From Gracilibacillus suaedae (lineage in GTDB: Bacteria > Bacillota > Bacilli > Bacillales > Amphibacillaceae), in assembly GCF_017599345.1 (NCBI RefSeq), contig NZ_JAGFVL010000016.1, forward strand, positions 62,001 through 126,000: a stretch of 64,000 nt of DNA, given 5' to 3'. A program made the position numbers and the translations under genes. The notes under the pieces are model-generated. The model had not been told where the DNA came from. It saw nothing but the letters and a program-made list of their open reading frames with translations, and did no database searches. Below are positions 4,867 through 57,060 of this stretch, piece after piece (within the stretch, counting starts at the first letter, position 1; every line of letters begins with the position of its first letter).

Positions 4867-5172
4867 GATAACAAACAAATCTGAATGAAGAGAGCGAAGA
4901 TTTGTAGAATAAACCGGGATAACGAACAAATCTGAATGAAGAGAGCGAAGATTTGTAGAATAAACTAGGATAACGAACAAATCTGAATAAAGAGAGCGAA
5001 GATTTGTAGAATAAACCAGGATAACAAACAAATCTGAATGAAGAGAGCGAAGATTTGTAGAATAAACCGGGATAACGAACAAATCTGAATGAAGAGAGCG
5101 GAGATTTGTAGAATAAACCAGGATAACGAACAAATCTGAATAAAGAGAGCGAAGATTTGTAGAATAAACTAG
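4867..5172. repeat. Tandem array, six units of 51 bp
   Basis: Six head-to-tail units begin at 4867, 4918, 4969, 5020, 5071 and 5122, differing at only a few positions (for example CCGG, CTAG or CCAG at the unit end). Each contains ACAAATCT and its inverted copy AGATTTGT about 15 bases apart. Because 51 is divisible by three, long repetitive reading frames appear on the minus strand, but they lack any recognised domain and are taken as non-coding. The array lies between two co-directional genes, just after a terminator. Confidence 0.9.
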
Positions 5173-5265
5173 GATAGACAACAAAACTACTGAAGCTTTC
5201 ATGTAATGGGCGAACTAGCAATACAAAGAACTACTTGTAATTTGTAGAATTAGGAGATTTGATAT

Positions 5266-20549: not shown

Positions 20550-20594
20550 AGTTTTAGTTAAAAACAAATTGTGAGTTTTCTTCAAGAAATGTTT

Positions 20595-20900
20595 TCGAAG
20601 ACAAAAGGAAGCAAAAAAGGGAAAAAGTGTCCTCGAGAAGCATCCTCGAAGACAAAAGAAAGCAAAAAAGGGAAAAAGTGTCCTCGAGAAGCGTTCTCGA
20701 AGACAAAAGAAAGCAAAAAAGGGAAAAAGTGTCCTCGAGAAGCGTTCTCGAAGACAAAAGAAAGCAAAAAAGGGAAAAAGTGTCCTCGAGAAGCGTTCTC
20801 GAAGACAAAAGGAAGCAAAAAGGAGAAAAAGTGTCCTCGAGAAGCGCTCTCGAAGACAAAAGGAAGCAAAAAAGGGAAAAAGTGTCTTCGAGAAGTCTCC
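20595..20900. repeat. Tandem array, six units of 51 bp, terminator-like hairpins on the minus strand
   Basis: Units start at 20595, 20646, 20697, 20748, 20799 and 20850. Across each junction TGTCCTCGAGAA pairs with TTCTCGAAGACA around a 3-base loop (one mismatch). Read on the minus strand, each hairpin is followed by CTTTTTCCCTTTTTT, so every unit resembles an intrinsic terminator for transcripts coming from the convergent NERD gene. Repetitive frames on both strands exist only because 51 is a multiple of three. Confidence 0.92.
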
Positions 20901-20940
20901 CTCTAAAAAATAGATAAAGCTTCGGCCAATACTTTAGATC

Positions 20941-22141: not shown

Positions 22142-22168
22142 ATTTACATAATAAAATAAGCGATTAAG

Positions 22169-22317
22169 ATTCCTTTGGGGCAGGGCGTAATTCCCGACCG
22201 ACGGTGATAAAAGCAAAAACGCTTTTTTAGTCCGTGACCCGGATCATGTAAAACATGTGAAGGTGGATTTGGTGAAAATCCAAAGCCGACAGTAATAGTC
22301 TGGATGGGAAAAGGAAT
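22169..22317 (+). promoter_or_regulatory. FMN riboswitch (RFN element)
   Basis: Conserved blocks appear in order: GGGGCAGGGCGTAATTCCCG, ACCGACGGT, AGTCCGTGACCCG, GGTGGATTTGGTGAAA, GCCGACAGT and the closing GGATGGG. The P1 stem pairs ATTCCTTT (22169-22176) with AAAGGAAT (22310-22317). It controls ribD-ribE-ribBA-ribH through the terminator at 22420. Confidence 0.97.
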
Positions 22318-22419
22318 TGGTGACGTAGTGACTTTTCTATGGGGAAAAGTAGTTTTTTTGTGTCCCCGTAGCGATGTAACCACAAAACCAAGTTCTTTAC
22401 TATGAATTGAAATACACAA

Positions 22420-25953: not shown

Positions 25954-28233
25954 TTAACTTGTTTTAAATTTCTTGACGGTATTGGATAACGACAAGCTCT
26001 GCTCCTTCATCGTTGTAATCCGTTGAGCAATATCACCGATAGATGCATCACTCTCTTTCATCTGTTGATTAATTATCGCCAATTTATTACGCATCATTTG
26101 AAAACTATGCTTTTGTTCTTGTTTACTTGCCATCATTTCTGAAGTATCTTTGCTCATTACTTCCAGATTATCTGTGAAATGATCTATCACATGATAAATT
26201 TCATTAACTTTACTATTAATACGATTGAATTTCTCTGGTATATAAGCTAACTCTTCTAATAAATCATGCAATTTAGTAGAAAAAGTGGAAAATTCACTCT
26301 GACCTTGTTGTATCGTATCAACAGTTCCAGTTATGATTGATTGAATCTCAACGGTGGATTGTTTAGATTGCTCTGCCAGCTTTCTTATTTCATCGGCCAC
26401 GACAGCAAACCCTTTTCCATATTCTCCTGCATGAGCTGCTTCGATTCCCGCATTTAGAGCCAATAAGTTTATTTGTTCTGCGATATCTTTAATTACTTTC
26501 ATCACTGAATTACTTTGATTTGAAAAATGTTGAATTTGTTCATTTTGCTCTTGATACCTTTGCATGGTGTCATTGACATCTTGATTCATTCCGGTGATAT
26601 CACTCACTGTCGATTGTACGGATGTCATTTCTTCTGTTAAGGTCGCAACATTTTCACTTACTTGTTCAACAGAAGAAAAGAACTGTTGAATCGTGGCAAT
26701 TACTTCATTTTCTCTTTCCAACTCCCTTTCCAAACGTTGATCCGACTCTACAAACACTTGATGGGTATCTTCGATAGTATCAACTTGTTCTTTACTGTTT
26801 TCTCGCAAACGCTCTGTCTTTTGAATTAAATCCTCTGCGGAATGTTCAACATAGCTAGAAGCATCCTTCACTTGCTTAACTAATTGATCCAGTTTTTTAA
26901 TTACCTGATTAAAAGCGATATTTAATTCATATGTATCTTCACCAGGTTCTACTTTTATCGTACTCGTTAAGTCCCCGGCCGAGTTAGCAATTTCCTTCAT
27001 TGAATGGATCGTATCAACCATTGCAATAGATGCCCCATGTTCACTAACATTCAGTCCGGCAAGTTCTTCTTCTTTTTCTGGACGAATTTTCATAAATAGC
27101 CCAATACCTTTATAAATAAGATAGCCAAGTGCAAAGGCCCATAAAAAGGCAACTGCTACTCCAATAAATTGGATGAAAATTTGTTCTAAGCGCGTTTCTG
27201 CAGGTAGTAACGACATAGTACCGAATAAACCCACTGCTAAGGTGCCCCAAGCACCACACACACCATGAACAGATACCGCACCAATAGCATCATCTATTTT
27301 CCAAACTTTTTCGATAAAAATTAAAGAAAATACGACGATAATTCCTCCGATTGCACCAGCTAGGAGCGCCATAAGCGGTGTGAAGACGGCAACTCCTGCA
27401 GTTACCGACACTAAACCAGCTAAGACACCATTAAGAATATCTTCTACTTTAGGTTGTGAGGAGATTATCCAGCTAGTGATCATCGCGAGTAATCCACCTG
27501 CAGCAGCTGCTAAATGAGTGTTTAGGGCAATTAGTGCAATCGATGTGTCACCAATTGTGGTGGAACCAGCATTAAAACCAAACCAGCCCAACCATAAAAT
27601 AAACACACCAATGGCTGCGAGTACAACATTAGAGGGTTTTAAGCTGTAGACTTTTCCATCTTTATATTTACCTATTCGTGGACCTACTACTAATGCAGCA
27701 GCTAGTGCCACCCAGCCTCCAATGGAATGGACAACAGTAGACCCTGCAAAATCAACAAAACCGATATTTTCTAACCAACCAGCTTGATCAGGGTTGAGTA
27801 GACTACCCCATGCCCAATGACCAAAGATTGGATAAATAATTAATACAATAAAAAATGTGCCGGCTAAGTACACACCGAATTTTACTCTTTCCGCAATAGC
27901 ACCAGAAACAATCGTTGCTGCTGTTCCGGCAAATACAATTTGGAAGAATAAAAAGGCCCAATTCCATGGATCATCTTCTAAGCTCTGGAAGAAAAAGAGA
28001 CTTGAACCAATCCATCCATGTGCAGAATCACCAAACATGATGGCGAATCCGAATAAAGAAAATACCATTGTCGCAATTAATAAGTCACTGACATTTTTTA
28101 TCGCAACATTTATCGAGTTTTTTGCACGGACAAGTCCTGCTTCTAAGGCAGTAAATCCAGCCTGCATAAAAAATACTAGAATAGAAGCTAAAACAATCCA
28201 AACAAAATCAAGGTGAAGCTGAATCGTATCCAT
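25954..28233 (-). CDS. Ammonium transporter fused to a methyl-accepting chemotaxis domain (Amt-MCP)
   Basis: A single 759-residue frame. Residues 1-385 form an Amt/MEP/Rh channel of about eleven helices with conserved features: [11 protein letters not shown], the Phe gate region [23 protein letters not shown], Asp161 and His169 ([11 protein letters not shown]) and His323 ([11 protein letters not shown]), i.e. the twin-histidine pore. Residues 390-450 are a linker, then a long coiled coil whose tip is the canonical chemoreceptor hairpin ([19 protein letters not shown], about 586-604, and [16 protein letters not shown]). No periplasmic ligand-binding domain or CheR-docking pentapeptide is present. 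The start is the second ATG (28233), 8 bases after AAAGGA. Inference: ammonium passage is reported to CheA/CheW. It is monocistronic, with no glnK neighbour. Confidence 0.92.
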
Positions 28234-28433
28234 ATGTGTCATCCTTTTCTATAAGGGTTACTAGATATAAGCTGTATATTTTCATTGGTGTATAATAAAC
28301 ATGAGTAAATAATACTATTGGAATAGAAACAATGTCATGTTCATAGTTAGATAATCTTACAAACATTCTTATTATCTGACATAAAAAATGAGGTATGTGA
28401 GGGTTTATTGCGAAAAGGGGTATAAAACTAAGA

Positions 28434-28465
28434 AGAAGTGACAGTTTAATGAAACTGTCACTTCT
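28434..28465 (-). terminator. Hairpin after the glutathione peroxidase gene
   Basis: AGAAGTGACAGTTT (28434-28447) pairs perfectly with AAACTGTCACTTCT (28452-28465) around a 4-base loop. On the minus strand TCTTAGTTTT follows, a weak U-tract. Confidence 0.75.
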
Positions 28466-28467
28466 CA

Positions 28468-38577: not shown

Positions 38578-39042
38578 AAGATTTATAAACTGCGAAATAA
38601 CTGGTCATGGATTTGCTCTCTGCCATTTTTCCCTTGGACAGTGATGACAAACCGCTCCGGCAGAATACTTCGTTGGGAGAAGTGCAACATTTACTCAAAC
38701 CAAAATTACTTTCGTATTGTTTTCTATGCCGACGTTCAAAACCACATAAGGAAATATCCCCGGAAGCGCCATTTTGTTCCAAGGAAAAAGCTTTCTCTTC
38801 CGGGGATGATCAGCTATATCCAGGGAAGAGAAGGAAATATCCCCGGAAGCGCCATCCTGTTCCGAGGAAAAAGCTTTCTCTTCCGGGGATAATCGGCTAT
38901 ATCCAGGGTAGAGAAGTGGGCAGCCGGAGTGGTAGTGATTATCGTTATATATTTCAAAATTATGTCTTAGATGACCGCACATCTGATTTCCTTGCTACTT
39001 CAAACAGAATTTTCACAACTTTGCAGGTTGTATCTACTATCA
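38578..39042. repeat. Dispersed 83-bp-hairpin element, copy 1
   Basis: The left end resembles ATAAACTRCGAARTAACT and the right end carries a diverged inverted version. The left flank contains CTCCGGCAGAATACTTCGTTG; the right flank contains CAGCCGGAGTGGTAGTGAT, ATTTCAAAATTATGTCTTAG and ACCGCACATCTGATT. Two 83-bp units start at 38754 and 38837. Short frames through it have no recognisable product. Confidence 0.85.
38754..38919. repeat. Two 83-bp tandem hairpin units (copy 1)
   Basis: Each unit has ATCCCCGGAAG paired with CTTCCGGGGAT, an 11-bp perfect stem around a loop of about 32 bases, then a spacer ending TATATCCAGGGAAGAGAAGG. Confidence 0.88.
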
Positions 39043-43997: not shown

Positions 43998-44525
43998 GAT
44001 TTATAAACTACGAAGTAACTTGACATGGATTTGCTCTCGTCCATTCTGCATTTTGATGAGTGCTGCCATACGCTCTGGCAGAATACTTCGTTGAGAACAA
44101 GTGCAACCTCTATTCGAACAAAAATTACTTTCGTAGTGTTTTCTATGTCGTCGTGCAATCCCCTCGGAAGCGCCGTCCTGTTCCGAGGAAAAAGTCATCT
44201 CTTCCGGGGATAAACAATTATATCCAGGGAAGGGAAGGAGATATCCCCGGAAGCGCCACCCTGTTCCGAGGAAAAAGTCATCTCTTCCGGGGATAAACGA
44301 TTATATCCAGGGAAGGGAAGGAGATATCCCCGGAAGCGCCGCCCTGTTCCGAGGAAAAAGTCATCTCTTCCGGGGATAAACAATTATATCCAGGAAAAGG
44401 AATTGGGTAGCCGGAGTGGTAGTTATCATCACTATTTATTTCAAAATTATGTCTTAGGTGATTGCACATCTCATTACCAAGCTACTTCGAACAAACAGAA
44501 CTTCCATTACTTCGCAGTATGTATT
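43998..44525. repeat. Dispersed 83-bp-hairpin element, copy 2
   Basis: Left end ATAAACTACGAAGTAACT; the reverse complement of the right end reads ATACTGCGAAGTAATGG, giving a short terminal inverted repeat (ACTRCGAAGTAA). Flank blocks are shared with copies 1 and 3: GTGCTGCCATACGCTCTGGC on the left and CAGCCGGAGTGGTAGTTATC, TCAAAATTATGTCTTAGGTG on the right. Three 83-bp units lie inside. Confidence 0.88.
44158..44406. repeat. Three 83-bp tandem hairpin units (copy 2)
   Basis: Units start at 44158, 44241 and 44324. The second and third have perfect ATCCCCGGAAG/CTTCCGGGGAT stems; the first has CCCTCGGAAG on its left arm. Confidence 0.9.
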
Positions 44526-48915: not shown

Positions 48916-49065
48916 TCGAAGACAAAGTAAAGCGAAAATGAAGAAAAGTGTCTTCGAGAAGCGCCATCGAGGACAAAGTAGAGCGAAAATGAAGAAAAGT
49001 GTCTTCGAGAAGTGCTCTCGAGGACAAAGTAAAGTGAAAATAAGAAAAAGTGTCTTCGAGAACAA
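48916..49065. repeat. Tandem array, three units of 51 bp, terminator-like on the minus strand
   Basis: Units start at 48916, 48967 and 49018. Hairpins form between TGTCTTCGAG and CTCGAGGACA (one wobble). Read on the minus strand they are followed by CTTTTCTTCATTTT. The sequence shares CTCGAAGACAAA and GTGTCTTCGAGAAG with the array at 20595. The setting, between convergent genes, is also the same. Confidence 0.88.
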
Positions 49066-56582: not shown

Positions 56583-57060
56583 AACATAAACTACGAAGTA
56601 AAGTGGACATAGATTTGCTCTCTTCCATTCTGGATTTTGATGAGTGCTGCCATACGCTCCAGCAGAAAACTTCGTAGTGTTTACTATGTTGTCTGATATC
56701 CCCGGAAGCGCCATCCTGTTCCGAGGAAAAGTCTTCTCTTCCGGGGATAAACGATTATATCCAGGGAAGGGAAGGAGATATCCCCGGAAGCGCCATCCTG
56801 TTCCGAGGAAAAAGTCTTCTCTTCCGGGGATAAACGATTATATCCAGGGAAGGGAAGGAGATATCCTCGGAAGCGCCGTCCTGTTCCGAGGAAAAAGTCT
56901 TCTCTTCCGAGGATAATCGACTATATCCAGAAAAAGGAATTGGACAGCCGGAGTGGTAGTTATCATCACTATATATTTCAAAATGATGTCTTAGGTGACC
57001 GCACATCTCATTACCGAGCTACTTCGAACAAACAGAACTTCCACAACTTCGCCGTTCATA
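56583..57060. repeat. Dispersed 83-bp-hairpin element, copy 3
   Basis: Left end ATAAACTACGAAGTAAAG, right end CTTCCACAACTTCGCCGTTC; flanks GAGTGCTGCCATACGCTCCAG and CAGCCGGAGTGGTAGTTATC are shared with copy 2. It lies between ydcC and alr in a cluster otherwise collinear with B. subtilis, so it looks inserted. Confidence 0.88.
56696..56943. repeat. Three 83-bp tandem hairpin units (copy 3)
   Basis: Units start at 56696 (82 bp), 56778 and 56861. The third reads ATCCTCGGAAG..CTTCCGAGGAT: both arms changed together, so the stem is kept by a compensatory C-G to T-A change. Confidence 0.9.

Follow-up and report, generated by a model that had tools for sequence, protein, structure and literature searches.

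Built from 11 helices, the Amt domain of ammonium transporters assembles as a trimer, and chemoreceptors work as dimers. The nearest characterised relative of the protein described here is Ks-Amt5 of 'Candidatus Kuenenia stuttgartiensis', an Amt–histidine kinase that, as described in parts of PMC5764959, binds NH4+ without efficient translocation: two NH4+ are held in a pocket formed by Q24, E31, N47, D50, T51, T109 and T112, and the pore is shut by F27, Y30 and F34. For Amt fusions, the same parts of that paper cite a 2009 review. On the regulatory side, sections of PMC6191146 and PMC4475385 give TGTNAN7TNACA as the common GlnR/TnrA site, and in 2012 an 'mcp' gene with a GlnR site ahead of it was recorded for Geobacillus, Anoxybacillus and others (in Table 4 of PMC3412718). 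Here, we analysed the amt-mcp gene in a 64,000-nucleotide stretch (the window) of the Gracilibacillus suaedae genome. Reading from sequence, we consider it moderately probable that its product, of Amt–HAMP–MCP architecture, is an ammonium chemoreceptor that the cell makes when nitrogen is limiting.

The original prediction, a single uninterrupted 759-codon gene in which an Amt channel is fused to a chemoreceptor signalling domain, gave the coordinates correctly and left the strand unstated. The gene lies on the minus strand, which that reading missed together with a HAMP domain and an upstream regulatory box. The gene and the parts of its product are as follows:

25954..28233, minus strand: amt-mcp gene, 759 codons plus stop (open frame, ribosome site, orthologues)
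27031..28203, minus strand: Amt domain, residues 14-404 (Pfam PF00909, NCBIfam amt, PDB matches)
26863..27015, minus strand: HAMP domain, about residues 410-460 (profile comparison; Pfam in homologues)
25957..26862, minus strand: chemoreceptor cytoplasmic hairpin, residues 461-762 (PF00015, alignment with same-genome receptors)
26422..26478, minus strand: hairpin tip, residues 589-607 (sequence motif)

The longest minus-strand frame extends from 25954 to 28242 (762 codons) with no internal stop, between the two domains or elsewhere, and the plus-strand reading of 25954-28233 has stops throughout. AAAAGG sits 9 bases ahead of the ATG at 28233, which makes the 759-codon form more likely than the longer one; residues are nevertheless numbered by the 762-residue form (759-codon numbering plus 3). 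The closest named relative, the G. lacisalsi orthologue, is 97% identical across all 762 residues, with dN/dS values of 0.046 for the Amt part, 0.017 for the linker and 0.063 for the receptor part (against the other three copies, dS is at or close to saturation). The gene is intact and under strong purifying selection in all its parts; the uninterrupted frame is confirmed and the fusion is real.

In the family, 8 of the 159 genomes have a match at E 1e-100 or better, six covering both parts, one broken near codon 517 and one consisting of the Amt part alone; among the same-genus genomes listed, 6 of 17 carry amt-mcp, the broken copy included. Nine genomes of the 397 in the order have a match, each nearly full length; 45 of the 398 sampled from the phylum have one, and just two of these matches reach the receptor part (the window genome and G834). 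From a scan of named genomes, in which 205 relatives were confirmed and 80 loci kept, 68 Amt tails of at least 100 residues could be compared by output: MCPsignal in 14, HATPase_c in 26, class III cyclase in 10 and GGDEF in 8. The 14 MCPsignal fusions are spread over Bacillales, an Alphaproteobacteria bin, Rickettsiales, Spirochaetales, Desulfosarcina, Desulfobacterales, SAR324 and Puniceicoccaceae, seven of them being metagenome bins according to their titles. By these counts, the remark that a chemotaxis output is rarer on an Amt was a fair one. The fusions to a class III cyclase (Guanylate_cyc) include cyanobacterial ones (L064, L068, L075, L076, L077, L080, L099 and L111), which would link ammonium sensing to cyclic nucleotides.

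That one relative, G032, has its frame broken near codon 517 could be taken to mean that the fusion is a product of chance or is decayed, or even that it is an assembly error. We regard this as highly improbable, as the same architecture recurs in named independent assemblies and in the nine genomes of the order, and dN/dS is low in all parts; for the window copy, the intact frame, the G. lacisalsi orthologue and the dN/dS values refute it. The break in G032 (L031/L159) may reflect a sequencing error or decay, and its receptor part is conserved at 57% versus 81% for the Amt part.

Pfam Ammonium_transp (PF00909) covers residues 14-404 at 380 bits, NCBIfam amt (TIGR00836) scores above its cut-off, and Asp164, His172, His326, Phe104, Phe223, Trp145 and Ser227 are all present, each conserved in all, or all but one, of 25 Amt-MCP rows. 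Judged by the two profile matches, the twin His, the Phe gate and the Trp/Ser filter, the Amt part belongs by fold to the Amt/Mep/Rh ammonium transporter family. The complete Amt channel originally read here therefore stands as regards its key residues (the Asp161, His169 and His323 of that reading correspond to Asp164, His172 and His326); completeness need not mean transport, the nearest characterised relative, Ks-Amt5, binding NH4+ with inefficient transport. Ks-Amt5 (6eu6) is the best PDB sequence match of the Amt part, at 384 bits, followed at 331 bits by 8qj3/8qpf, whose alignment reaches residue 449 and thus enters the HAMP region. The classical transporters score lower, with 174 bits for 2b2f (presumably Af-Amt1) and about 142 for AmtB, and identity amounts to 39% with the paralogue in the same genome and 28% with E. 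coli AmtB. In the distant Amt-MCP of a Rickettsiales bin (L046:687-3077), both twin His are replaced, by Ser and Asn, and the filter Ser by Leu.

The positions matching the Ks-Amt5 pocket are Q27, E34, N50, D53, L54, T110 and S113, five of the seven being identical, and all but Leu54 are invariant among 18 Amt-MCPs. The Q-E-N-D-T combination occurs in 68 of 70 fused rows and in 9/9 sister stand-alone Amts, in 28 of the 29 stand-alone Amts of a later sample chosen by similarity, and in none of 18 more distant stand-alone Amts; Asp53 is absent from three fusions, namely L059 and L103 (2 of 45 other fusions) and L190 (later sample). Being equally present in the sister and further stand-alone sets, the pocket was dropped as a mark of sensing: because so many stand-alone Amts share it, it is compatible with sensing and no proof of it, and by this distribution the extra NH4+ pocket is an old, shared feature. 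A long loop 5 was likewise rejected as a fusion mark, since it is equally long in most stand-alone relatives and short only in AmtB-like proteins.

The strongest rival to the chemoreceptor reading is a transceptor, in which the Amt part still imports ammonium and the transport cycle, rather than dead-end binding, drives the receptor part. The conservation of the twin His, Phe gate and filter speaks for it, as does the occurrence of the pocket in stand-alone Amts, which are presumably transporters; moreover, of the positions matching the pore closure of Ks-Amt5 (F30, L33 and L37) only F30 is the same, L33 and L37 differing, so transport by Amt-MCP is possible. Nevertheless, the Amt part clusters with fused sensors and apart from stand-alone Amts, its nearest characterised relative lacks efficient transport, and the genome has another Amt for uptake, and we consider the transceptor unlikely. 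Downstream of this second amt come genes for DUF294 and an exonuclease, and because the same arrangement is found in other Bacilli (footnote to Table 1 of PMC3412718), the second Amt is the likely uptake transporter. No glnK lies in the window, and the only P-II family match of the genome is on another contig, in keeping with the original observation that none stands beside amt-mcp; no canonical glnK was found in the genome. The frame with that P-II match (221 aa, L164:1132-1797), downstream of a membrane-protein frame, encodes seemingly a double PII-like protein.

At the other end of the protein, Pfam MCPsignal (PF00015) matches residues 554-701 with 114 bits, the tip lies at 589-607, and both hairpin and tip can be aligned to receptors that the genome encodes; the canonical chemoreceptor hairpin of the original prediction is thereby borne out. 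The cheA and cheW genes, whose presence had been proposed as a check, are both encoded in the genome, in one operon whose products are CheB, CheA (681 aa), CheW, CheC, CheD, a receiver protein and, from the sigma-70 family, what is probably SigD. An apparent stop inside cheA was rejected, as it is the end of the gene and the 681-aa frame is whole. The genome also holds a further CheW match elsewhere and 16 other receptor frames. On the strength of the MCPsignal match, the tip, and CheA and CheW in the genome, Amt-MCP is assigned to the methyl-accepting chemotaxis proteins. The proposal that the channel is its sole candidate sensor is supported.

The two parts are joined by what profile comparison identifies as a HAMP domain. 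For 7 of 10 homologues, 2 of them above the curated cut-off, Pfam reports HAMP at the corresponding position; for the Amt-MCP of the window it makes no such call at E up to 1. When compared as a profile with the HAMP segments of seven receptors that the genome encodes, all seven above the Pfam cut-off, 23 Amt-MCP linkers matched with a probability of 97 (E 3e-11) and 54 linkers of other Amt fusions with a probability of 95 (E 2e-8), whereas two coiled-coil controls gave 0.4-2.3. These matches indicate that a HAMP domain joins the membrane and output parts. Just before it, the Amt domain ends in GLNxxEHG, with Asn in all 70 fused rows; at the same site, GL(D/N)xxEHG, the 28 stand-alone rows have Asp in 26, a gap in one and Asn in one (L094, which falls inside the fused clade). 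The later sample shows Asp in 28 of its 29 stand-alone Amts and a gap in the remaining one; of two further fusions, L190 has Asn and G834 Asp. In a wider motif scan, 81 fused and two stand-alone loci (L094, and L104, which is a cut row) had Asn, and 29 stand-alone loci had Asp; the scan misfired at L051, and 13 loci lacked the motif. Given the Asp of the G834 fusion, Asn398 was rejected as a mark common to all fusions.

A maximum-likelihood tree built from 98 Amt domains unites the 70 fused rows, together with the stand-alone L094, in one clade with a support of 99 (SH-aLRT from a quick search, no bootstrap). With an Amt part that is fused to a cytoplasmic transducer and groups with other fused Amts, Amt-MCP has the architecture and placement expected of an Amt-based ammonium sensor of the Ks-Amt5 type. 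The tree omits loci judged redundant (L027, L030, L037, L068, L075, L077, L080, L086, L091, L106, L107 and L111), the truncated rows L065 and L104, and, from a set of 30 stand-alone loci, every other one; L089, although scored as stand-alone, is truncated where its contig ends. A tree of 107 rows leaves out 21 more fused loci, L168 (the same gene as in L194) and L189. Receptor output changes four times on the 98-row tree, at least two of these changes being forced by well-supported branches, and five times, at least three of them forced, once the G834 fusion is added. This fusion, in which Pfam confirmed both Amt and MCPsignal, has an Amt part placed among stand-alone Amts and 74% identical to one of them, and it adjoins a stand-alone amt gene (L194, contig C60). 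By its placement, the G834 Amt-MCP arose apart from the main fused clade. Amt–receptor fusions are found in several phyla, and the tree requires three or more gains or losses, of which one is clearly a separate origin. A conserved gene neighbourhood was rejected as a general feature: among the loci checked, those of Gracilibacillus (L034, L035 and L028) retain it, and no shared neighbours were found at L036, L038, L039, L032, L145 and L148. At six distant Amt-MCP loci, the neighbours (8 frames) gave one lead, another receptor gene beside L044.

Three predicted elements lie upstream of the gene:

28345..28361, no strand assigned: GlnR/TnrA-type box TGTAAGATTATCTAACT (minus-strand reading), one mismatch from TGTNAN7TNACA
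28309..28338, minus strand: predicted promoter ATGACA, 18, TATTAT (sequence prediction; box spacing in Gracilibacillus)
28433..28466, minus strand: terminator-like hairpin after the upstream gene (sequence prediction)

The box TGTAAGATTATCTAACT is positioned upstream of the predicted -35 of amt-mcp. Taken by itself, the site in the window would be weak evidence, and one-mismatch sites are not enriched there (32 seen versus 44 expected); it is the conservation of the box in Bacillales that argues for control by GlnR/TnrA. Within 300 bases upstream of the Bacillales amt-mcp loci, a perfect box is found at 10 of 18 and a box within one mismatch at 17 of 18, the sole exception being L039, compared with means of 0.15 (largest 2) and 3.9 (largest 9) in 500 dinucleotide shuffles. 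These counts omit L027 and L035 (copies of L034 and L030), include the close pair L036 and L037, and, the 18 loci being related, amount to fewer independent cases than their number. Across the five intact Gracilibacillus loci, the box is centred 51 bases ahead of the predicted transcription start, a spacing with which, in other genera, only L147 agrees (-50). TnrA-activated promoters carry the box at about this distance before the transcription start. Perfect boxes precede glnR and the second amt, which served as positive controls; the 16 other receptor genes of the genome have no perfect box and one within one mismatch, and the seven Amt-MCPs outside Bacillales have no perfect box and three one-mismatch boxes where about one is expected. 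The genome encodes both GlnR, its gene preceding glnA, and a TnrA-like 79-aa frame of the MerR family. Nitrogen control of amt-mcp through the box is thus likely. Promoter-like sites are no commoner in the region than by chance (8 found versus 9.1 in shuffles), terminator-like hairpins number 3 versus 1.6 in shuffles, and the hairpin at 28433..28466 suggests an amt-mcp transcript separate from the upstream gene. A Sigma-D promoter was rejected, as the best upstream match has three mismatches and 25 sites with at most two mismatches occur by chance in the window.

The box also bears on a reading in which ammonium or ammonia is a repellent or a pH-like cue, or CheA is used for something other than swimming. 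The sign of a response is unreadable from sequence, which leaves room for such a reading, but a nitrogen-control box fits scavenging, and the che genes share their operon with a sigma factor gene, probably sigD; we consider this reading decidedly unlikely.

Elsewhere in the window, two tandem repeat families, each with three arrays of 90-96% matches, are spread across the sequence, one with a 51-bp unit (4867-5185, 20591-20895 and 48916-49062) and one with an 83-bp unit (38748-38916, 44165-44402 and 56695-56930). As RNA, 20554-20940 folds better than shuffles (z -4.3), and long, probably spurious frames run on both its strands. Ordinary FMN (before riboflavin genes) and TPP riboswitches lie at 22167-22319 and 1061-1168, respectively.

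For the ammonium chemoreceptor that we favour, the ligand and its binding, any transport, the coupling, the control of CheA and the direction of taxis are inferred. Under nitrogen limitation, GlnR/TnrA would turn amt-mcp on through the box. The Amt trimer would take external NH4+ at the Trp145/Ser227 filter and, by comparison with Ks-Amt5, hold it in a polar, acidic intramembrane pocket of Gln27, Glu34, Asn50, Asp53, Thr110 and Ser113. As HAMP and receptor biology would have it, occupancy of the pocket might shift the C-terminal GLNxxEHG segment and alter HAMP packing, which in turn would set the activity of CheA at the hairpin tip. The cell would then swim up ammonium gradients, a direction suggested by the nitrogen control. 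Between them, two Amt trimers would carry six hairpins, exactly the number needed to build one trimer of dimers. A bolder version, possible and put forward only tentatively, would see here a class of nitrogen-controlled ammonium chemoreceptors, evolved more than once, in which the channel is the receptor: each pair of Amt trimers would make one trimer of dimers, Amt trimers would act as array nodes and ammonium would be read co-operatively, and the Asp-to-Asn change of the main clade would turn a transporter latch into a signalling joint.

In the literature searched, we found no paper on an Amt–chemoreceptor fusion and no bacterial ammonium-taxis receptor built on an Amt; domain-architecture databases and the 2009 review may list such a fusion. 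New, as far as we can tell, are the nitrogen box, the HAMP joint in Amt-MCP, the recurrent origin of the fusion and the main clade's Asn signature. Amt-MCP makes an Amt-based ammonium-taxis receptor directly testable, the nitrogen box pointing to a simple growth condition for taxis assays, and it poses a structural puzzle, namely how a sensor that is a trimer drives a signalling unit that is a dimer.

Because Amt sensors with fused transducers are already known, Amt-MCP is a variant rather than a new class. The alignment with 8qj3/8qpf, deposited in the PDB as an 'Ammonium transporter' of 644-661 residues, runs into the HAMP region of Amt-MCP; we take this protein to be Sd-Amt1 of Shewanella denitrificans, an Amt–HAMP–diguanylate cyclase, whose output differs. 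Like other bacterial chemoreceptors, Amt-MCP has a HAMP domain before the hairpin, but in place of their Cache or four-helix sensor it has an Amt, and the tip Arg (AAR) of chemoreceptors is His in the Gracilibacillus copies. The GlnR-controlled 'mcp' of Geobacillus, Anoxybacillus and others is likewise a chemoreceptor gene with an upstream GlnR site, for which the relevant parts of PMC3412718 make no mention of an Amt fusion, and it sets a precedent for nitrogen control of taxis. Ks-Amt5, as described in parts of PMC5764959, is without HAMP, whereas Amt-MCP has one; both combine an Amt sensor with a fused cytoplasmic transducer and have no glnK beside the gene, the output being a histidine kinase in the former and a chemoreceptor hairpin in the latter. 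With kinase, cyclase and chemoreceptor outputs attached to one sensor module, the module could be read by a fast quantitative output, such as CheA activity or swimming.
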